From an uncultured Bacteroidales bacterium (GTDB lineage: Bacteria; Bacteroidota; Bacteroidia; Bacteroidales; Muribaculaceae): 36,393 nt of DNA. The position numbers were made by a program, and so were the translations under genes. The stretch is from the NCBI GenBank assembly GCA_902768435.1, contig CACXLJ010000021.1, positions 1-36,393 on the forward strand, given 5' to 3'. Positions within the stretch are counted from its first letter, which is position 1. Every line of letters begins with the position of its first letter. Under the pieces are notes generated by a model. The model saw nothing but the letters and a program-made list of their open reading frames with translations. It searched no databases and was not told where the DNA came from. Positions 7,590 to 36,393 of the stretch are shown piece by piece.

Positions 7590-10500
7590 CTACTTGGCGA
7601 GCGACATATTCAATGAAATGCCATAATTACTGTTAGTGGTCGGGTATGCTGACGACGACACCAGCGGCGTGTTGACCTGATGATCGAAGTAGGCCCCGAT
7701 CGTCACTCGCTTGCTCATCACATAATTGGCCGTGAAGTTGATGCCCAGGGTCTTAGTGCCGCTTGTGGGCTGTGTAGTGCGCACATCAATCTTGCGAATC
7801 AAAGCCGTGTTGTTACTGTATTGCAGATCAAACTTGAGCGTCAGGTCGTTGCTCACACCCTGCTGCTTGTTCTTGATCTTGAGCACCGAGTTGAAATTAG
7901 CAATCTTGTAACCGGCACCAATCACAAACGACTTAGACAACGCCTCGACTAACTGGCCTGCCGATGAGTTGAGCGACAGCGTGCGGCTATCACGATACTC
8001 AATGTTGAAGGTCATGCCGTTGTTCAATGTGGCATTCACACCCAGCAGCGGGGCAAATTTCTCGGTAAGGGTTATCGACGAGATGTTGTAAGGTGACGAT
8101 GGTATGGGAGCACCGGTCAAAGCGTTCTGGGTGAAGCCCAGCCCCTCGCCTATCGTTACCCAGTCGCTGTAGCTCGAGTAAGAACCCACCTGATAGGTAC
8201 ACTGATAGGCATGAGTGAGCGTGAAGCTCTTGAAATGCTTGTTGAAGAAGGGCAGTTTCGACAATCCGTCGTAGGTGACACGCCAGTTAGGCAGTATCTC
8301 CTTCAACGACGGGAAGGGGCTCAAAGTAACCTTCTTGGGATTCTTGCCCGAATAAGCAGCCATGAATGCAGGTATCAGCACATCTGAACTCATCTGGTTC
8401 ACTGTACCGTTGTCGGGATTGAATTCGGCATTGGCATAAATGGTTCCGTTGATAAAGCCACGGTCGGGATAACTTTCTCCTGTATATTGCGACTGAACGC
8501 GCTCGGCCACAATAGGGATGTTTTCAAGGAACTTGTCGAACGCTGCGCTATGATAGTCGTTCTTGGCGCTCACCCCACGCAGGGCGGTGGCAATTGCCAT
8601 GTGAGTCTTGGTGTAGCTGCCCGAATACACTGTGGCCATGTCGTTGTACATGAACTGCAGCTGGCTCGTGCGGTTATCGGTGCGGTTGCCAGTGAGAGTG
8701 ATCTTGAGGCCACGGATGGGTTCAAGCTGAATCTCGGCAGAGAACTCTTGAGTCTTGGCAAAGAGGGCGGGCGAAGTCATGCTCTCGTCGCACAACAGCC
8801 AGCCACGCTCCTTGGCCTTATCGATATAGCTCTCGTCGGTAAAGCCAAATGCAAAGTCAAGACCGGGAGCCATCACATCGTAACGAGTAGTCTGGCCGAA
8901 GATGTCGCCGATTTCAGGTTTGAACTGCGGCAACGAGAGCGAGCGTGTAGTCCTGAACTTCACATTCACATTCTTCACCATCATGGCAAATCGGGTCGTG
9001 TACTGAGCAAACTCATACAGGAATCCCTTCTTGTCGCCCGAAGTGAGCTCCGATATAGTGAGTTTGATGTTTTCGGTTCCCTTGTTCAGGATTTCAATCG
9101 TGTTGTCGTCCTTCACTTCATATTTTACGGGGAAGCGTTTTCCGTCGCTTGTGGTTGCGGTAACACGCACCTTCTTCACATTCATGTTGTGCTTCACAAC
9201 CAGCGTAGTGTCGGCATTCAATTTGAAGGCACGATTGAATTTCTTGGGTTTCTTGGCATTCTTCGTGTCGCGCGACTGCCCGCCCCCCGACGATGAGAAC
9301 CGCTTGTTCACATCTTTCAAGAAAGGTATCTTGTTGTAGAGCTGGTCGAGATTGAAACGCCCATCGATGTTCAACGACGACTGGTTGGCAATCGTGTGGC
9401 CCGAGAACGAGCCGTCGATGACGGTTCCGCGATCCCAGGTGTAGGTTGCATTATAGGAAGCATTGGCCGTGATGAAACTCAAAATGGGTATTGCGCTGAA
9501 CGGTGCCTTGTACGATGCCGTGAATGTCTGGTTGTAGGCCCAAGGCGTGCCCAAGCCCTTGATGCTGCGCATCACGCTGTCTTTCCAGTCACGATACTCA
9601 TCGGGGAACAGTTTCTTGTTCACCTGGCCCATAGGCTCCATGATGTGGGCCGTGGTCTGGGTATTGAGCGACACATTAATCGACTTGGTGAAGTTCCATG
9701 TGATAGAGAACTGGCGGTCCCACAGGAAGTTCTTGCTCACCGACACTGGCAGTTCCACATCGATGTCGGTCTCGTTGCGCGTTTGCTGCTCATAGTAGTA
9801 ACGCGACATGTTGGTGTTAAACGCAATGGATGCAGGCAACCAGTGGATTTCCCACTCTCTGAAGAACTTCAGGTTCTTGTTCTTCTCGCTAATGAGTTTC
9901 TTGAACGGGGTGAAAGGCTTCACATAGGGCACCCAGCTATACTGGAAGCTGCCGCGATAGTCATTCGTGTTCTCATACACATTGTCGGGGTCGCTAATGT
10001 GCGTCTTGCTGAACGAGTAACTGAATGTGAAGTTGGCAGGGTCCCAAGGCATCGGGTTCTTGCTCTTCACATCAAATTTCAAGCCCGAGACACTGAAGTT
10101 CTGCACCGTGTGGCGCGACACTGCATAGGCATTGATCGAATCTTTTTGTGCATCGGTTTCGCAAGCGTCGATAGCATCTTTCAGCAGCACATCCTGATCA
10201 AGAGGATTATACTTGGGAGTGGTCTTCTCATTGCTGTAAGAGTAATAGACGGGAGCATGGAGTTTCACCTTCTCGGGCAGGAAGCGGCCCATGTCGGCCT
10301 GCACTGCCACATTATACTGGTCGTAGTTGTCGAGTCGACGATGACTCAGGCCCTGATCAACCGCGCCAAAGCCCGCAGTTTCCTTGTGCATGCCCACATT
10401 CACAGTGGCAATGTCGCTCATGCTCAAGCTCAAACTTGCCTTGGCAGCCCAGCCGCCGTCCTGGTCAAAATCGGTCACACGCAATTCGTCGACCCAAACG

Positions 10501-15792: not shown

Positions 15793-17868
15793 TTATAGAC
15801 CCAGAATCATGTTCACCAACGCTGCAACATCGCTCACATTCACTCGTCCATCGCCATTCACATCGTCATTCATGGCATCGTCTTCGGTGATTTCTAAAAT
15901 ACTGTTGATCAGCGCAGTCACATCACTCACATTCACCCGTCCGTCAGCATTCACATCGCCTTGAACTGCACCTGTAAGCACATAGCGCAGACCCGCCGTA
16001 GCATCAAGTTTTCCAAACCCGTATTTGCGGACATCGGCATCGGCAAGATAGCGGTCGCGGTAGCAAGTCTTTTTCAAGACTTCACGCACATCACTCGGAC
16101 ACAGTTCAGGATTTGCCTCAAGCCAAAGAGCAACTGCACCTGCCACCACTGGCGACGCCATCGATGTGCCAAAATCTAAACCAAAAGCATATCGTTCATC
16201 GCCGATGGTCACATAACTATTGACCCAACGCGGATTTTCGTTTTGCTGTGTGTAATAACGGTTATAGGACGACACCACTGACATGCCCGGCGCAATCACA
16301 TCGGGCCGCATCACACCTTTAGCATCAGGGCCATAGGACGAGAAGTTCACCACCTCATAAAGCCGCACGCCCGAAGTCAGAGTGCTATTGTTACCCGACA
16401 GCACTGCAGCCTGAGCTCGGCTGTAAAAAGCGCCTACCGAGATGGTCGAATCGCCTGTTGCGAGGTCGCTGATCGACATCTCGCTGCAGCCATGCATCCA
16501 TAATGGGTCATCGGGCCGAAAACTGTGCATACGCAGACCGGAACTCCAGCTCATCAGTTCACACGAATCATGCGGAGCAAACTGAAGACCCAGAAGCAGA
16601 CTGTCGGGCAAATGCCCCGTCTTGACATTGAACACCGAGTGAAACTTGTGCAGCCGCTCAAAGGCATAGTCAACACAATCATCGCCATAATCCTCGCCAA
16701 ATGCAGCACCCAATTCCACATGAAACACACTATCGGCAACCAACTCGCTGTATTCATAAAGCGGAGACCATTTCACAATCTCGCTGGTGGTTCTGTCCAT
16801 AAGCACAAACCGCAAGTCATGAGGCACATCATTAGTGGCCCACACACTCACATAGCCCGACACATTGGAATCGTGCTTCGAGTTGGTCAGTATGGCCGTC
16901 ACAGTATCGCCAAGCGATACCCAAGGAGATTGAGCATACAGGTAACTCGTCCCGTCGTTACCGGCCGCCAGCACACAAATGCGCCCCTTACCACTCAACG
17001 CATCCATCAGGTGGCACAACATCGAAGAGCCGTCGTGAGCCCCATCGTGAGAACTAATGCTCATATTCACCACAGCCGGCATGCCGGCACGATTGGCATA
17101 GTCAAAAATATAGTTCAGCGAATTGGCTATGTTCACATCGGTCAAGGCATCTTCGGGCATGGAGCACAACACAAGGGTTGCTTCAGGGGCCACTCCGAAG
17201 AACGGTTTTCCACGGTAACTGCCTGCCGCTGTTCCTGTTGTATGGGTGCCGTGCGAGAGCGTAGTGCAATCGGTGGTCAGCTGTGCTATTTCTTCAGGTG
17301 TTTCATAAGCACTGCCAGGCAAGGTTATGCCATCAATCACAGGCGAAATGCCGGTAGTGTCGGCTGGCATATAGGCACCTGCCACCCTGCTCACGCCATT
17401 GCTGTCACACAGGTTGATATGGTTGAAATCAATGCCCACATCAATCATGCCCACTATGATCCCTTTTCCTGTGTAGGTAGCGGGGAGCGAAATGCCCTCA
17501 TGCGCAGCATCGACACGGCATAGGTAGCGAGCCGTGTCGTTACACAACGACATGGGTTGAGCCATAGTTACACGATGCACATCGCATTGATTCCCTAAGC
17601 GAGGCAATGCATTTAATGGAATGCGAGCCGTAAGTATATTGCCCACACGCATATACACCTGGATTCCAAGTTCCTTAAGTTGTGCCACTGTGAAGTCATC
17701 GCCCACCTCGATAAAAGCATCAAACGATTGGTTCTCACCAATGGCAGAGAACTTAGACTGTGTTTGGGCCAACTGCAGACGGCTCTTTGCCGACAAAACA
17801 CGCTGGGCATGCGCCATCAAGCAAAATGACACGCACAACAGCAGCAATATCGGCAGTTTGATTCTCAT
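15793..17868 (-). CDS. Secreted S8 subtilisin-like serine protease with C-terminal dockerin module
   Basis: The 691-residue protein has a signal peptide (residues 1-21, ending MAHA), a short propeptide-like region and an S8 peptidase domain with an intact triad. Asp143 lies in GMIDVGIDFNH, His206 in LSHGTHTTGTAAG and Ser569 in FGTSMASPVVAGA. The oxyanion-hole Asn304 is in AAGNDG. A beta-rich insert of about 160 residues separates the Asn and Ser segments. Residues 637-691 form a type I dockerin: two calcium-binding loops (GDVNADGRVNVSDV and DDVNGDGRVNVSDV), each followed by a short helix ending NSIL or NMIL. It lacks the T9SS-type tail seen in its upstream paralog. Its ATG overlaps that gene's stop by 4 bp (ATGA), implying translational coupling. 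The substrate is unknown; secretion across the outer membrane is inferred. Confidence 0.93.
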   Translation of the reverse strand: MRIKLPILLLLCVSFCLMAHAQRVLSAKSRLQLAQTQSKFSAIGENQSFDAFIEVGDDFTVAQLKELGIQVYMRVGNILTARIPLNALPRLGNQCDVHRVTMAQPMSLCNDTARYLCRVDAAHEGISLPATYTGKGIIVGMIDVGIDFNHINLCDSNGVSRVAGAYMPADTTGISPVIDGITLPGSAYETPEEIAQLTTDCTTLSHGTHTTGTAAGSYRGKPFFGVAPEATLVLCSMPEDALTDVNIANSLNYIFDYANRAGMPAVVNMSISSHDGAHDGSSMLCHLMDALSGKGRICVLAAGNDGTSYLYAQSPWVSLGDTVTAILTNSKHDSNVSGYVSVWATNDVPHDLRFVLMDRTTSEIVKWSPLYEYSELVADSVFHVELGAAFGEDYGDDCVDYAFERLHKFHSVFNVKTGHLPDSLLLGLQFAPHDSCELMSWSSGLRMHSFRPDDPLWMHGCSEMSISDLATGDSTISVGAFYSRAQAAVLSGNNSTLTSGVRLYEVVNFSSYGPDAKGVMRPDVIAPGMSVVSSYNRYYTQQNENPRWVNSYVTIGDERYAFGLDFGTSMASPVVAGAVALWLEANPELCPSDVREVLKKTCYRDRYLADADVRKYGFGKLDATAGLRYVLTGAVQGDVNADGRVNVSDVTALINSILEITEDDAMNDDVNGDGRVNVSDVAALVNMILGL

Positions 17869-30723: not shown

Positions 30724-33700
30724 TTAACCCAAAATAATATTGATCAAAGCCGACACATCGCTCACATTCACACGGCCGTCTCCGTTCACATCGGCAAGCG
30801 ACTCATCGACGGGAACAATGCCCAGAATCATGTTAATCAGCACCGACACATCACTCACATTCACACGGCCATCGCCATTCACATCGCCCATAACTCCGAC
30901 GCTCTCTTCCACAATGTTCAGGAAATCCTTCCACGGGACAGTCACCTTGTAGACATTCTTGGTGCCCTTAGGCACATAGAGCGTGCACAGGTCTTTAGGC
31001 ACACCCGAGAAGGTGAGAGATGGCGATTTATACTCAACGGCGGTGGGATCCTGAATCCTTGTGTGAATGGCACGGAGTCCTGTGCAGCCATCGAATGCTG
31101 AGCGCTTGAAGAGCTTGACAGTGCGGGGAATGGTAACCGATGTTATGCCGGTGCATTGTGAAAATGCGCGATCTATTATTGTGAGCGTATGTTCCAAACC
31201 ATAGTGATTCACCTTTTCGGGAATATTGAGGTCGCCTGTCAGGTTGTCATAACTGGCGCCGTACTCGTTCTGGTGGGTTACCTCGAGCGTAGAGATGTTG
31301 TCAAGATTAACATTATAATACAGGTTGCCCTCCACAAAGGTGTAGCCTTCCACCTTGTTCTGTATATCTTTCCATTGGTCAGCGCCTGAGTAGGCATTGA
31401 CCGACCCTTCAGGCACATGGAGCACGGTGGTGCTGGGCAGATTCCTAAAGACCTTGGTCTGAAGCGTGACTGCGGCAGGGTCGGCAATTTGGCTGTAGAT
31501 GGCTCCCAGAGTGGTGCAGTCGGCAAAGCTATAAGCTCCCATGTGAGTGACATTGGCAGGAATGTTTACGGTCTTCAATGCCTGACATTTATAGAACGCA
31601 TAGGTGCTGATGCGTGTGAGCGTTGCGGGCAATGTGACCGAGGTGATATTGGGGCAAGTGTAGAATGCTCTGGAACTGATGCTGTTCACTGCCAGCTGAC
31701 GATTGTCGATGCTCACCATCTCGGGCACGATAATGTTTCCGCTGACCGAGGTGTAGCCATTGCCTGACGTGTTCTCGGGCTCAAGCGAGGCGGTGTTCAG
31801 ATTGCTTCCATTCACACTGTAGTATAGTTCATTGATTTTCGTTAGGTTCTCCACAATGTTAATAAAGGCTTTCCACTGATCGGCTTGCTTGTAGGTTTCA
31901 ACCTTGCCACGTGGCACTTTGAGTTTGCATGTTGATGTGTTGACTCCACTGAACACGGAATTGCGCAAGGTGGTGTTGGCAATGGTCTGAATGTCGGAGC
32001 AGATGTATTCGAGCGCGCTGCAGTTTTTGAAAGCAGTGGCACCAATGAGGGTGACTGCGCCTCCTATTCCCAGCCGTTTCAGCCCGGTGCAATTAATGAA
32101 AGCGCGATCGCCCACATGATTCACGGCCGCGGGAATGCTCACGCAAGTGAGGCTTGTGCAGTCACTGAAGGCATCAATGTGGATTGCTTTCAAAGATTGA
32201 GGCAAGGTGAAATCATTGAGATTGACGCATCCCTTGAACGCTTCTATGCCAATCTCGGTAAGGGTGCTGGGGAAAGTGATGTTGCGCAGGTTAGTGCAGT
32301 TCACAAAGGTTTCTTCTCTGATTGTTACCACACCTTCAGGTATCACAAGGTTGTCGGCCGAAACATTGTTCACATAAAGGCGTTTGGCATAATAAAGCGG
32401 GTTGCCGGTGTTGTTATAACCTCCATACTCAATATTGCACCATGCGGCAACATCGGTGATTTTAACCTGTGTCAGTAAGGTATCGGCAACGAATGCGGAA
32501 CTACCGATTTTTGCCACCGAGCTGCCCATACTCACCGATTTCATGGCGTAGCAGTAAGCGAAGGCCTGCGCGCCAATTTCAGTGACTGAATTGGGGATTG
32601 TTATGCTCTGAAGATTGCTGCATTTCCAAAAGGCATACCCCTGGATAGTTTTGAGACCGTTTCCCAGGTTTATCGTCTTCAAGGCATTGCATTCGTTAAA
32701 AGCATAAGTTCCAATTTCGGTAACCGAGTTAGGGATGGTGACGTTGGTGAGACTTGTGCAGCGCTCAAAAGCATTATCACCGATTTTTTTGAGCGAAGTT
32801 CCTATAGTTATCGTCTGCAAGGCATTGCATTCGTTAAAGGCATAAGACCCTATTTCGGTAACCGAGTTAGGGATGGTGACGCTGGTGAGGCTTGTGCAAT
32901 TCTTAAAGGCATATTCACCAATGGTTTTAATCGAAGTTCCCAAGTTGACACTTGTCAGCCCAGAGCACCCATAGAATGCGTACGACTCGATTCGTGTCAT
33001 TGCATTGTGCATGGTCACGCTCTTCAGGTGCTTGAAGCCGGCGAATGTGTAGGCGTTAATGAAGGTGATATCGTTGGGAATTGTTATGGAGGTCACTTCC
33101 TGGTTGTTAATATAAAGGTGTGCACCTGTGTAAAGCGGGTTACTGGCAATATTGCCATAGGTGCCATTGAGCCATCGGTAAATGCTGGAGACCTCGACAC
33201 GGCTCAGATTATTGCAGCCGCTGAAGGCGCTTTTACCAATTGAGAGGTCGTTGTTTCGAGGACAGATGACATGTGTGAGCGCTGTGCAATTTTCGAATGC
33301 TTTTTCACCTATAAAGCGTCCGTATTCACCCATGTCAACCTTTGCAAGTTTTGTGCAGCCACTGAATGCGCTTGCTCCAATGAAATCTACAAAGGGTTTC
33401 ACCTCCTGCAGTCCGGTGCAGTTCTTGAAGGCATTATCACCCATTTTCACCATGTTGCTGTTAACAGCCATGGTCACCTTGGTCAGGTTGGTGGTCCCTT
33501 CAAAGGCATTGTCGTCAATACCTGCCACATTGTAGGTAGTGCCGTTGTAAGTTACCGTTTTGGGGATGGTGATGGCTGTAGCCGAACTGTAGCGGTAGCG
33601 AGGTGCCGAAGTGTATTGATAAGTAACTTTTACTGTGTTCGATTCCGTTATACGGTAACAAATATTGTCAGCCTGAAAATCATACCCCAAAGCCACTTGA

Positions 33701-33747
33701 GGCAAAAGGGTAGTGATAGTGATAATAGCAAAAATAATTCTTCTCAT
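30724..33747 (-). CDS. BspA-like leucine-rich-repeat surface protein with C-terminal dockerin
   Basis: The 1007-residue protein has a signal peptide (residues 1-21, ending QVALG). An N-terminal beta segment introduces the LRRs (RITESNTVKVTYQYTS, TYNGTTYNVAGIDDNAFEG). Then come more than 25 copies of the 23-residue LRR_5 repeat, whose core reads like AFxNCTSLTSVTIPNSVTEIG. Three spacer units have a 'VPxGxxxxYxxADQWKxFxNI' pattern (for example KVPRGKVETYKQADQWKAF). Residues about 952-1007 are a dockerin with two DVNGDGRVNVSDV loops. Such LRR proteins are usually surface adhesins or binding proteins; the ligand is unknown. A stretch at 32683-32958 is a recent tandem duplication. It starts 58 bp after the related 750-residue gene with no good promoter between, so the two are probably one transcript. 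Confidence 0.92.
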   Translation of the reverse strand: MRRIIFAIITITTLLPQVALGYDFQADNICYRITESNTVKVTYQYTSAPRYRYSSATAITIPKTVTYNGTTYNVAGIDDNAFEGTTNLTKVTMAVNSNMVKMGDNAFKNCTGLQEVKPFVDFIGASAFSGCTKLAKVDMGEYGRFIGEKAFENCTALTHVICPRNNDLSIGKSAFSGCNNLSRVEVSSIYRWLNGTYGNIASNPLYTGAHLYINNQEVTSITIPNDITFINAYTFAGFKHLKSVTMHNAMTRIESYAFYGCSGLTSVNLGTSIKTIGEYAFKNCTSLTSVTIPNSVTEIGSYAFNECNALQTITIGTSLKKIGDNAFERCTSLTNVTIPNSVTEIGTYAFNECNALKTINLGNGLKTIQGYAFWKCSNLQSITIPNSVTEIGAQAFAYCYAMKSVSMGSSVAKIGSSAFVADTLLTQVKITDVAAWCNIEYGGYNNTGNPLYYAKRLYVNNVSADNLVIPEGVVTIREETFVNCTNLRNITFPSTLTEIGIEAFKGCVNLNDFTLPQSLKAIHIDAFSDCTSLTCVSIPAAVNHVGDRAFINCTGLKRLGIGGAVTLIGATAFKNCSALEYICSDIQTIANTTLRNSVFSGVNTSTCKLKVPRGKVETYKQADQWKAFINIVENLTKINELYYSVNGSNLNTASLEPENTSGNGYTSVSGNIIVPEMVSIDNRQLAVNSISSRAFYTCPNITSVTLPATLTRISTYAFYKCQALKTVNIPANVTHMGAYSFADCTTLGAIYSQIADPAAVTLQTKVFRNLPSTTVLHVPEGSVNAYSGADQWKDIQNKVEGYTFVEGNLYYNVNLDNISTLEVTHQNEYGASYDNLTGDLNIPEKVNHYGLEHTLTIIDRAFSQCTGITSVTIPRTVKLFKRSAFDGCTGLRAIHTRIQDPTAVEYKSPSLTFSGVPKDLCTLYVPKGTKNVYKVTVPWKDFLNIVEESVGVMGDVNGDGRVNVSDVSVLINMILGIVPVDESLADVNGDGRVNVSDVSALINIILG
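32683..32958 (-). repeat. 138-bp tandem duplication inside the LRR gene
   Basis: Copy one is 32683-32820 and copy two 32821-32958. The unit of 138 bp equals 46 codons, or exactly two 23-residue LRRs. The first ~79 bp of each copy differ at only about seven positions, while the rest has diverged more. The encoded repeats both contain TIPNSVTEIG and AFNECNAL. A similar third partial copy precedes them. This suggests recent expansion or gene conversion within the array. Confidence 0.7.
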
Positions 33748-33805: not shown

Positions 33806-36058
33806 TCAACTGATGCCCAAGATAATATTGATCAGGGCCGACACATCGCTCACATTCACACGGCCATCACCGTTCACATCGGCAAGCGTCTGGTCCATCG
33901 GAGTCAAACCCAGAATCATGTTGATCAGTGCTGACACATCGCTCACATTTACACGGCCGTCACCATTCACATCGCCCTTCAGTCCGCCTTCCTCTTCAAT
34001 GTTCAGGAAATCCTTCCACTGAGCGGCATTCCTGTAGAGTTGCAGAGTGCCAGCAGGCACATAGAGCTTGCAGGTGGTCTTGGGCACGCCATAGAACACA
34101 TTGTCGCCCAGTGGCACATCTGTGGGAACCTTGATCTGGCTATGAATAACCTTGAGTCCTGTGCAGTTATACAATGCAAGACGACCTATGCTCGTAACTG
34201 AATTCGGGATGGTAATGCCTGTGAGTCCTGTTGCACCCATAAATGCCATGTTGCATATCTCATTCACCGTAAAGGTTTGGTTCCAGTACGAGAGGGTGTC
34301 TGGAATAACTATATCGCCTTTCACTAGGGTCTCGGTATGGCGATTGCGGTAATCCTCGTTTACGCGCACAATATGGGCTTTCTTGGTCTTGAAGTCAAGT
34401 ATGGTGCCTACGGTCAGCCCGTTGTTCCCGCCAAAGTTCCACACCACATCATAGCCACCATCGGTCAGCATACCCTCGTCCATCTGCATCCAGGGAATTG
34501 TATTCTCGTAATCTTCAAGAGCCGGAGTCGGGACACGAGCATGAAAGCCCGAAGGGAATGGAAATGTGATGAAATTGCCAAGGGTCTGACGATATGGTTC
34601 AAGCATGGCCATGTTCATCTCTATAAGTTGCTTGCACTCTGAGAATTGACGCGCACCTTCAATCCGCACAGTGCTGGGCACCTTCACATATTTCAGCGAG
34701 GAACCGTAAAAGGCCGAGTCGCCCAGGACTTGAGTACCGTATGGGATAATGACCCCTGCCCCACCAAACTGATGGAACGAGTGCTTCTCGATGCGAATAA
34801 GCGATGATGGCAAGTTGCTTAGCAGCGATGTCGACGACACGGCTTTGGGCGGACAATGATAGAGGTTCAACTTGTCCCCATCATACAAAATGCCGTTGGT
34901 GTCACTGCTGTACTTGGCATTTTCAGTCTCAACGTTATAGGACTTCATGCTGGGCAGAGTCCAAAAGTAGTCTTGATTCAATTCGGTCACCGTCGACGGA
35001 ATATTAATTTGATACAATTTCGTGCACGACCCAAATACATTCTTGCCAACCGTAACGGTCCCCTCGTTCATCGAAGCCGAAGTGATTCCCGTGTTATAGA
35101 AGGCACGTTCTTCAATAGTCGTGGCACCAACCGAGAGTGAAGCAAGATTGATGCAGCCGTCGAAGGCACTTTTGCCAATGCGATCAATACAAGTGGCAAC
35201 ATTGGTCACATCCACTTTCGTAACAAGAGAGTTGGCATTAAAAGCATAGTCAGCCACATCGGCCACCGCATAACGCAATATTGTCGAACCATACTGGTAA
35301 TTGAAATCATCTTGCACATTGTTCTGCAGCAACACCACAGTCTTGCCCGGTTGCAATCCCACAATGGTCACCTTTCCTGTATAATCGCTGGTACTTGACT
35401 GAACATTGCCCGTCTTGGGCTCGCGCACTATATAGGTCATGCCCCAAGAACTGTCGGCAAAGTCATAGGCCTTGGAGCCATCCTGCAACACATTATAGAA
35501 ATTGCTGGTTATCCACGATGATTTTAAAAACGATTTATTTCGGGCATTGTAAGTCGACACATAGAGCGTGGTATTGCCAAGCGCATTTTCAAATGCCGAC
35601 GGATCCACACCCTTGTTGTTGTTCACCCCATCGCCAGGATACTCCTGAATGGCCCATGCAACCGTTGTGAAGTACTTCGACGAATAAGGCATGCCGAAAC
35701 ACCCTCTATGCAGCGCATTCAGCGAACTGGGCAGATACACCTCCTTAAGATTGGGAGTATCATAAAACACCTGTGGAAGTAGCGATTGCACGCCATAACC
35801 AATGCGCACCGATTTCAGATACTGATTGTGTCTGAACGCATAATTGCCTACACACTCCACATGATAGGTCTTCCCGTTATAAACGACATAACCAGGAATA
35901 TAAACTGAAGTTGCCGTTGAGTTCGCGTTAGCAAAGCCGATGCAGCGCACCGTGTTATAACCCTCATCCATATACTTGAGATCCCCAACCGTGAACTCAG
36001 CTTGCACAGCCAATGCTGCAAGAACAGAAATACTCAACAGAACAAATAATTTCTTCAT
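33806..36058 (-). CDS. Leucine-rich-repeat surface protein with C-terminal dockerin (BspA-like)
   Basis: The 750-residue protein has a signal peptide (residues 1-20, MKKLFVLLSISVLAALAVQA). It starts with the same kind of lead-in as its downstream relative (VYNGKTYHVECVGNYAFRHN). LRR_5 units are fewer and more scattered, separated by long non-LRR beta segments (about residues 195-260 and 505-600). A final LRR and the 'YVPAGTLQLYRNAAQWKDF' spacer lead to a dockerin at about 693-750 (DVNGDGRVNVSDVSALINMI, then a second loop ending IILGIS). It is probably exported and surface-exposed; the partner or ligand is not known. A consensus promoter lies 61-92 bp upstream, and beyond it the CTAG array. 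It leads a probable three-gene unit with the 1007-residue LRR protein and the PepSY-like protein. Confidence 0.9.
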   Translation of the reverse strand: MKKLFVLLSISVLAALAVQAEFTVGDLKYMDEGYNTVRCIGFANANSTATSVYIPGYVVYNGKTYHVECVGNYAFRHNQYLKSVRIGYGVQSLLPQVFYDTPNLKEVYLPSSLNALHRGCFGMPYSSKYFTTVAWAIQEYPGDGVNNNKGVDPSAFENALGNTTLYVSTYNARNKSFLKSSWITSNFYNVLQDGSKAYDFADSSWGMTYIVREPKTGNVQSSTSDYTGKVTIVGLQPGKTVVLLQNNVQDDFNYQYGSTILRYAVADVADYAFNANSLVTKVDVTNVATCIDRIGKSAFDGCINLASLSVGATTIEERAFYNTGITSASMNEGTVTVGKNVFGSCTKLYQINIPSTVTELNQDYFWTLPSMKSYNVETENAKYSSDTNGILYDGDKLNLYHCPPKAVSSTSLLSNLPSSLIRIEKHSFHQFGGAGVIIPYGTQVLGDSAFYGSSLKYVKVPSTVRIEGARQFSECKQLIEMNMAMLEPYRQTLGNFITFPFPSGFHARVPTPALEDYENTIPWMQMDEGMLTDGGYDVVWNFGGNNGLTVGTILDFKTKKAHIVRVNEDYRNRHTETLVKGDIVIPDTLSYWNQTFTVNEICNMAFMGATGLTGITIPNSVTSIGRLALYNCTGLKVIHSQIKVPTDVPLGDNVFYGVPKTTCKLYVPAGTLQLYRNAAQWKDFLNIEEEGGLKGDVNGDGRVNVSDVSALINMILGLTPMDQTLADVNGDGRVNVSDVSALINIILGIS

Positions 36059-36118: not shown

Positions 36119-36150
36119 CAAATATATCACATTTTTTCAAAAAATCCAAA
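36119..36150 (-). promoter_or_regulatory. Consensus Bacteroidota promoter for the LRR-dockerin unit
   Basis: On the minus strand TTTG (36150-36147) is followed by exactly 20 bp and TATATTTG (36126-36119), fitting TTTG-N20-TAnnTTTG. The expected transcript starts near 36112, leaving an AT-rich 5' leader of about 50 nt before the ATG at 36058. The CTAG array begins 37 bp farther upstream, close enough to influence this promoter. Confidence 0.75.
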
Positions 36151-36187: not shown

Positions 36188-36340
36188 CTAGAATATCTAG
36201 AACCGCTAGAATATCTAGTTCCTCTAGAGTCTCTAGAACTACTAGAACATCTAGCGCGACTAGAACTGCTAGAAAATCTAGTTCCTCTAGAGTTTCTAGA
36301 ACATCTAGGGCGGCTAGGAGGGCTAGAGCGGCTAGAAAAA
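36188..36340. repeat. 17-unit CTAG array with exact 9-bp period
   Basis: The tetramer CTAG occurs 17 times in a row at 36188, 36197, 36206 and every 9 bp to 36332, without one slip. Each CTAG is followed by five variable bases (for example AATAT, AACCG, TTCCT, AGTCT, CGCGA, GAGGG). The variable bases run from AT-rich near the promoter to GC-rich near the terminator. CTAG is a self-complementary palindrome that is usually strongly avoided in bacterial genomes. The array lies between the terminator of an outside gene and the LRR promoter. Four of six frames are open through it, but none has a usable ATG, GTG or TTG start, so I treat it as noncoding. The function is unknown to me; a binding array, methylation cluster or structured RNA are possibilities. 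Confidence 0.9.
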
Positions 36341-36374
36341 ACGAAAGCCCCGGAGCAGCAGCTCCAGAGCTTTC
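36336..36374 (-). terminator. Strong intrinsic terminator of a gene to the right of the window
   Basis: In minus-strand RNA, GAAAGCUCUGGAGC pairs with GCUCCGGGGCUUUC as a 14-bp stem with two G-U wobbles and a 4-nt loop. Six U residues follow after one C (36341-36336). In plus-strand RNA the wobble positions become C/A mismatches, so the signal works best on the minus strand. It must end a minus-strand gene lying beyond 36393. The 19 bp to its right, up to the window edge, show no identifiable gene end. Confidence 0.8.
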
Positions 36375-36393
36375 AAATTAGGGGGCGGTTACC

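Follow-up and report, generated by a model that had tools for sequence, protein, structure and literature searches.

The window, by which we mean the whole 36,393-nt stretch of DNA analysed here, is contig C21 of a 44-contig genome (G000), and the features that concern us are collected in Table 1. Read along the minus strand, a hairpin with a T-run is followed by an array of CTAG tetramers, a TAnnTTTG element and the start of a gene for a leucine-rich repeat (LRR) protein with a dockerin; the order of terminator, array and promoter given by the first-pass annotation is right, as are its coordinates. Since the last 13 nt of the window are identical to the 3′ terminus of the 5S gene on contig C20, where the same hairpin is present, the terminator probably belongs to an rRNA operon, and the minus-strand order would then read rRNA operon end, terminator, array, promoter and LRR-dockerin gene. 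The 13-nt remnant is itself too short for an Rfam match; matches to 5S were obtained on C5 and C20, and C22 starts with the same 13 nt as the window end. The window-type hairpin also stands after 5S sequence on C20 and C22, and on C20 an identical copy follows a truncated second 5S copy. Four contig ends of this kind were seen in this genome (C5, C20, C21 and C22, with Rfam-proven 5S on two of them), and an array lies behind each; one 5S gene of the relative G374 is likewise followed by one. As a rule for the genus, an rRNA-end element was ruled out, an array of at least three units being found within up to 1.5 kb at just 2 of 30 congener 5S loci.

Table 1. Features at the array end of the window (positions are those of the 36,393-nt window)
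Feature	Position	Strand	Description
LRR_5 (BspA-type) protein	33806..36058	-	750 aa; C-terminal dockerin type I; Pfam PF13306 and PF00404
-7 promoter element, TATATTTG	36119..36126	-	taken to be of the TAnnTTTG type; TTG 20 bp upstream at 36149-36147
CTAG array	36188..36340	.	17 CTAG cores, 9-bp steps, variable 5-bp fillers
Internal 63-bp (7-unit) repeat	36197..36339	.	Tandem Repeats Finder: period 63, 2.3 copies, 81% matches
Intrinsic terminator	36336..36374	-	hairpin 36343-36374, T-run 36341-36336
5S rRNA 3′ end	36381..36393	-	13 nt identical to 5S gene on C20; contig end

Two further observations belong to this neighbourhood. On C5 and C20 (L070:1-250 and L085:1-290), the 5S gene is followed by a truncated second 5S 3′ end with its own hairpin. 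Dockerin type I C-termini are carried by several secreted-type proteins (subtilase, BspA-type LRR), at 15793-17868, 30724-33747 and 33806-36058 of the window and in L069.

A count over 36188-36335 bears out the 17 CTAGs at exact 9-bp steps that had been claimed, with 16 fillers between them and a final filler extending to 36340; only three CTAGs occur elsewhere in the window. The array had also been called slip-free, and this description has to be abandoned: fillers recur, a run of four near-identical ones coming back seven units on, the resulting 63-bp internal repeat shows a past duplication, and the paralogous array on C22 has one unit more. Judged by eye, fillers ending in GG cluster at one end of many arrays of this genome, the window array (36188-36335) included, which would lend them a direction.

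The search of the whole genome and its relatives that had been proposed as a check was carried out, and further arrays were found here and in most of the sampled congeners. A pattern for the array end matched 48 times in this genome and its reversed control not once, while an exact four-core pattern matched 119 times per strand and its reverse never, which excludes a chance origin. The fetched stretches of this genome hold 35 arrays of four or more units, that of the window included. Among same-genus genomes, 47 of 61 gave an array match and 14 gave none; outside the family but within the order, 1 of 40 genomes matched. A second, family-wide sample was searched with a five-core pattern, which matched in 29 of 40 genomes of the genus and in 2 of the 257 that belong to other genera. 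The closest named records are rumen or gut genomes labelled Muribaculaceae, Prevotellaceae or Bacteroidales. In a tree of 30 mutS genes, for 23 of which array counts are known (drawn from two different patterns), the four genomes known to be array-free group as two pairs of sisters (G364/G060 and G310/G026), and each of the two main clades contains arrays. The first-pass annotation had rested part of its case on the rarity of CTAG. The tetramer is indeed rare here, but rarity alone is not distinctive because it is scarce in every Bacteroidales set tested (observed/expected 0.06-0.44 with arrays masked), and a scarcity peculiar to the genus is ruled out. Separately, ACGT falls far below expectation in this genome and in G374 (observed/expected 0.15 and 0.23, against 0.60-0.87 in the other sets), which suggests a lineage-specific restriction or methylation target. 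The congener G367 carries uniform arrays of the related units CTAGGGTTC and CTAGAATCC at G367:C2:4303 and G367:C4:27159.

The anatomy and position of the arrays were studied in four genomes, this one and the congeners G024, G041 and G031, which together hold 117 arrays. The unit in the three relatives is TCTAGA followed by three free bases, with A at position 5 at a frequency of 0.93-0.96 and T at position 9 at 0.87-0.98; in this genome, the outer pair around CTAG is looser (A 0.70, T 0.60). A palindromic core thus recurs at a fixed step, as it does in a tandem operator array. Between neighbouring CTAGs within 40 bp of each other, 573 steps are of 9 bp, 16 of 18 bp and 8 of 27 bp, and the off-phase steps number 5 of 8 bp, 2 of 10 bp and 11 of 7 bp, the last confined to four loci (L080, L098, L099 and L389). 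When tetramers were scanned at spacings from 5 to 15, CTAG at 9 headed the variable-filler arrays in every one of the four genomes but G024, where it was level with the overlapping TAGA at 9; these step and tetramer counts come from stretches picked for holding arrays and are not genome-wide densities. The fillers are diverse, with 166 distinct among 187 in this genome, and the identity of adjacent fillers (0.43) compares with 0.39 after shuffling within arrays, so that the conservation of whole units between neighbouring copies expected of an ordinary minisatellite is not seen. Ordinary 9-bp CTAG satellites, from 80 viral-contig loci, are mostly uniform by comparison (267 distinct of 655 fillers). 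Intergenic arrays of another kind, which have a 7-bp period and a core that differs by site (AACTGNN, TAAGTGN, ATGCNTA and others), occur near CTAG arrays or replace them: at L067 near 7900-8000, at L080, L082 and L089, at L393 after mutS, and at L447 and L449. With a step of 7 bp, a stop codon such as TAA comes to lie in each of the three frames.

With respect to genes, none of the 117 arrays lies within a gene called by a simple codon-usage caller in the four genomes, in keeping with the first-pass reading, under which the array should not fall inside an expressed ORF; a cruder longest-ORF caller assigned 3 of an initial 35 to ORFs, and a coding repeat is ruled out on the former count. The arrays fall into 84 co-directional, 21 convergent and 7 divergent gaps, with 5 at contig ends, and the array-free gaps of at least 60 bp in the same stretches are 156 co-directional, 32 convergent and 46 divergent. 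Divergent gaps are depleted of arrays (7/112 versus 46/234, p 0.0008; an array lengthens its own gap, which qualifies the comparison), a combination of intergenic placement and divergent depletion that is typical of REP/BIME repeats. Convergent and co-directional gaps do not differ overall (p 0.53) and do differ in this genome (p 0.002). Most arrays are located after stop codons, and in co-directional gaps the array begins a median 21 bp past the stop and ends 40 bp ahead of the next start. Measured against the upstream gene and its stop, the first CTAGs of the arrays in the four genomes are spread unevenly over the three frames (26, 54 and 48; p 0.006), the rarest being the frame without in-array stops. 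The genes beside arrays are of many kinds, including mutS, secDF, thr genes, topoisomerase, PNPase, efflux and dockerin proteins, and a link to any one gene class is ruled out by this variety.

Are the arrays, then, elements of promoters? Over 78 co-directional gaps, TAnnTTTG occurs on the sense strand 10 times downstream of the array and never inside it (one lies on the antisense strand), which rules out arrays as promoters themselves, and the placement at promoters of regulated genes that characterizes tandem operators is not what is seen, 21 arrays lying in convergent gaps. The role in expression of the LRR-dockerin unit inferred at first pass is likewise unsupported. An operator or spacer serving this gene alone would suit the position of the array end, 38 bp upstream of the promoter TTG, but the G375 ortholog, 96% identical over 1 kb, has no array anywhere in its 3.1-kb locus, which makes a gene-specific role unlikely, and similar arrays adjoin many unrelated genes and stand in convergent gaps; we consider it the least probable of the explanations discussed here.

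A function at the RNA level has more to be said for it, and we still regard it as improbable. Once transcribed, arrays could fold into rods or into successive hairpins and in that form protect or process the mRNA ends lying between genes, which would fit both the short median distance past the stop codon in co-directional gaps and the strong folding predicted for the arrays (mean -0.33 to -0.41 kcal/mol per nt). Any tandem palindrome must fold, however, and the order of the fillers has no effect on folding (mean z -0.004 over 117 arrays), so that long hairpins from complementary fillers are ruled out. Nor do the cores show the pairing-preserving change expected of an RNA element: over 118 co-directional arrays plus two phased positions on each side, 18 sense-strand core variants keep a G-U pair and 23 break pairing. 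The sense strand is A-rich in 55 arrays versus 16, but the remainder of the gaps has the same skew (64 versus 13), which disposes of A-richness as an RNA signal; neither filler order nor the A-rich sense strand offers positive evidence for any function. Some arrays, moreover, stand after rRNA-type terminators. Taken together, these comparisons favour, without proving, a signal that would be read from double-stranded DNA.

Whether the arrays were copied from site to site can be judged from their fillers. Of the 595 array pairs in this genome, 15 have two successive fillers in common, where shuffling predicts 5.4, and three pairs have three in common: the window array with that on C22, and pairs within the gene clusters of C3 and C16. 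In a set of 23 arrays that leaves out the C3 and C16 clusters, the window/C22 pair and other rRNA-side arrays, such two-filler sharing is seen in 4 pairs (2.5 expected) and three-filler sharing in no pair. Elsewhere, two-filler sharing affects 37 of 630 pairs in G041 (27.8 expected), 11 of 496 in G031 (6.9) and 2 of 91 in G024 (0.8). The excess in this genome and in G041 indicates that some duplication exists; most arrays nevertheless are not, judged by the sharing of their fillers, recent copies of each other, and a single master array as their source is ruled out in this genome, where sharing outside duplicated loci is about that of chance. The same figures bear on a dispersed, MITE-like mobile element carrying the array to many sites. 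Such an element would account for arrays that are dispersed, intergenic and limited to a lineage, as BrickBuilt of Porphyromonas gingivalis is, and for the clear duplicates; the chance-level filler sharing outside duplicated loci argues against it, as do the 35 sites of this genome, where inspection by eye found no common leader, tail or inverted ends. We hold this explanation to be highly unlikely. The shared palindrome of 20-40 bp by which REP/BIME repeats are recognized is also missing across sites, the core being common and runs of fillers seldom so.

An indication of constraint comes from divergence between species. Eight pairs of sites were aligned between this genome and its relatives G374 and G375, which are 79-93% identical around the sites. 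With both site sets together, differences affect 13 of 172 core positions and 44 of 180 filler positions. For the sites located through their flanks, the counts are 12 of 100 for the core and 30 of 105 for the filler (p 0.003); for those located through the array pattern, a set biased towards kept cores by its route of discovery, they are 1 of 72 and 14 of 75 (p 0.0006). The contrast is carried by three pairs, L084/L426 (the best single pair, with 0 of 32 core and 12 of 35 filler positions changed), L065/L432 and L076/L206; core and filler alike are close to unchanged in L067/L419, L079/L417, L072/L224 and L075/L215, and L077/L436 yielded no usable alignment columns. The first-pass annotation had proposed selection on CTAG itself, and a constraint on CTAG as DNA is likely because the arrays occur genus-wide and outside called genes and because their core is less divergent than their fillers. 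The sites themselves turn over between species. L067, L079, L084 and L089 keep both flanks in G374 and yet are without an array there, with a 7-bp-period repeat in its stead at L079. Of 29 other mutS loci set beside the array site at mutS in G041, 27 lack any array of at least three units over a span of up to 1.5 kb, and the order of the genes varies.

Kept cores and free fillers might also arise without any selected function, and this is the main rival, which we nonetheless judge unlikely: a neutral minisatellite of 9-bp period whose own hairpins would keep it regular. In single-stranded DNA, TCTAGA-NNN-TCTAGA could fold as a 6-bp stem with a 3-base loop; slippage would expand the array, and stem-templated correction, the quasipalindrome mechanism that mends stems but not loops, would maintain the stems and let the loops vary. 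Unit number does change by duplication and loss, as the 63-bp repeat and the unit indels in paralogs and orthologs attest, and repeated filler runs are common in arrays of six or more units (8 of 18 in this genome, 11 of 15 in G041). Other short-period (7 bp) intergenic repeats exist in the same genomes, as such a process would lead one to expect. It leaves unexplained, however, why one core was chosen throughout the genus, and the diversity of the fillers is high compared with that of the mostly uniform viral-contig satellites.

Our preferred reading, to which we assign a probability of roughly 0.4, is that the array is a row of adjoining, phase-locked 9-bp sites for a putative DNA-binding protein that, as a homodimer, would cover the ends of genes cooperatively. 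The homodimer would read the palindromic core (TCTAGA in the three relatives, CTAG here), neighbouring dimers would touch and be held in phase by the 9-bp step, and the bound row may act at gene boundaries in insulation, chromosome packing or the handling of supercoils rather than as the operator of one gene. What points to a tandem operator for a cooperative dimer is the strand-symmetric palindrome, the fixed period, the little sharing of fillers, the slower change of the core and the absence from sister pairs. Weighing against a protein platform are the turnover of sites in G374, the dependence of the core-filler contrast on three pairs, the occurrence of some duplication and the 14 of 61 congeners that are array-free. 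A further proposition, possible to our mind and doubtful, is that rows of TCTAGA-N3 would have been built afresh by a genus of gut Bacteroidales at dozens of gene boundaries, each with linkers of its own, and would seat a cooperative protein filament; the chromosome would then be marked by period and palindrome, not by shared ancestry, and the rows lost together by whole subclades. As one palindrome and one period are kept and arrays are absent from sister pairs, a trans-acting factor should be findable by comparing gene content between array-rich and array-free congeners. The arrays thereby raise the question of how these bacteria mark gene boundaries, including, in some species, those behind rRNA operons.

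In the open-access literature searched, arrays with a CTAG period were not found described. The closest kinds are REP/BIME repeats, BrickBuilt and tandem operators, none of which could be shown to share every defining feature with the arrays. Like REP/BIME repeats, the arrays are intergenic, frequently at gene 3′ ends, present in many copies and lineage-specific; REPs are imperfect palindromes of 20-40 bp with a shared sequence (PMC3733652), whereas here a palindrome of 4-6 bp recurs every 9 bp with free linkers. BrickBuilt, a minisatellite/MITE of P. gingivalis, is always intergenic and made of tandem units, with 19 copies in one genome (PMC4596501); it has a uniform 23-nt unit, a fixed leader and tail, and inverted ends. 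The arrays share with it a home in the Bacteroidales, an intergenic position and tandem units, and differ in their 9-bp units, variable filler and, by eye, lack of shared ends. The LIMP palindromes of the Lobosphaera mitochondrion are intergenic and internally repetitive and vary in unit number (PMC4524435); they form one long hairpin with a constant loop. The resemblance extends to intergenic, internally repetitive palindromic repeats; here, each unit is itself a palindrome and the fillers build no long stem. The tandem operators of MetJ and TrpR consist of short palindromes at a fixed step to which adjoining dimers bind, the trp operator holding CTAG twice, and they have an 8-bp step, few copies and a place at the promoters of regulated genes; the arrays have a 9-bp step and up to 17 copies, lie mostly away from promoters and would be bound by a protein that we can only infer. 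The short tandemly repeated repetitive (STRR) sequences of cyanobacteria, lineage-specific heptamers between genes, are conserved as whole units, whereas in the arrays conservation extends to four to six of the nine bases, and these are palindromic. The usual explanation for dispersed repeats in bacteria is mobile copies or simple slippage; the arrays bear little trace of a master copy and have no uniform unit, yet hold to one palindrome and one period over many sites and species.
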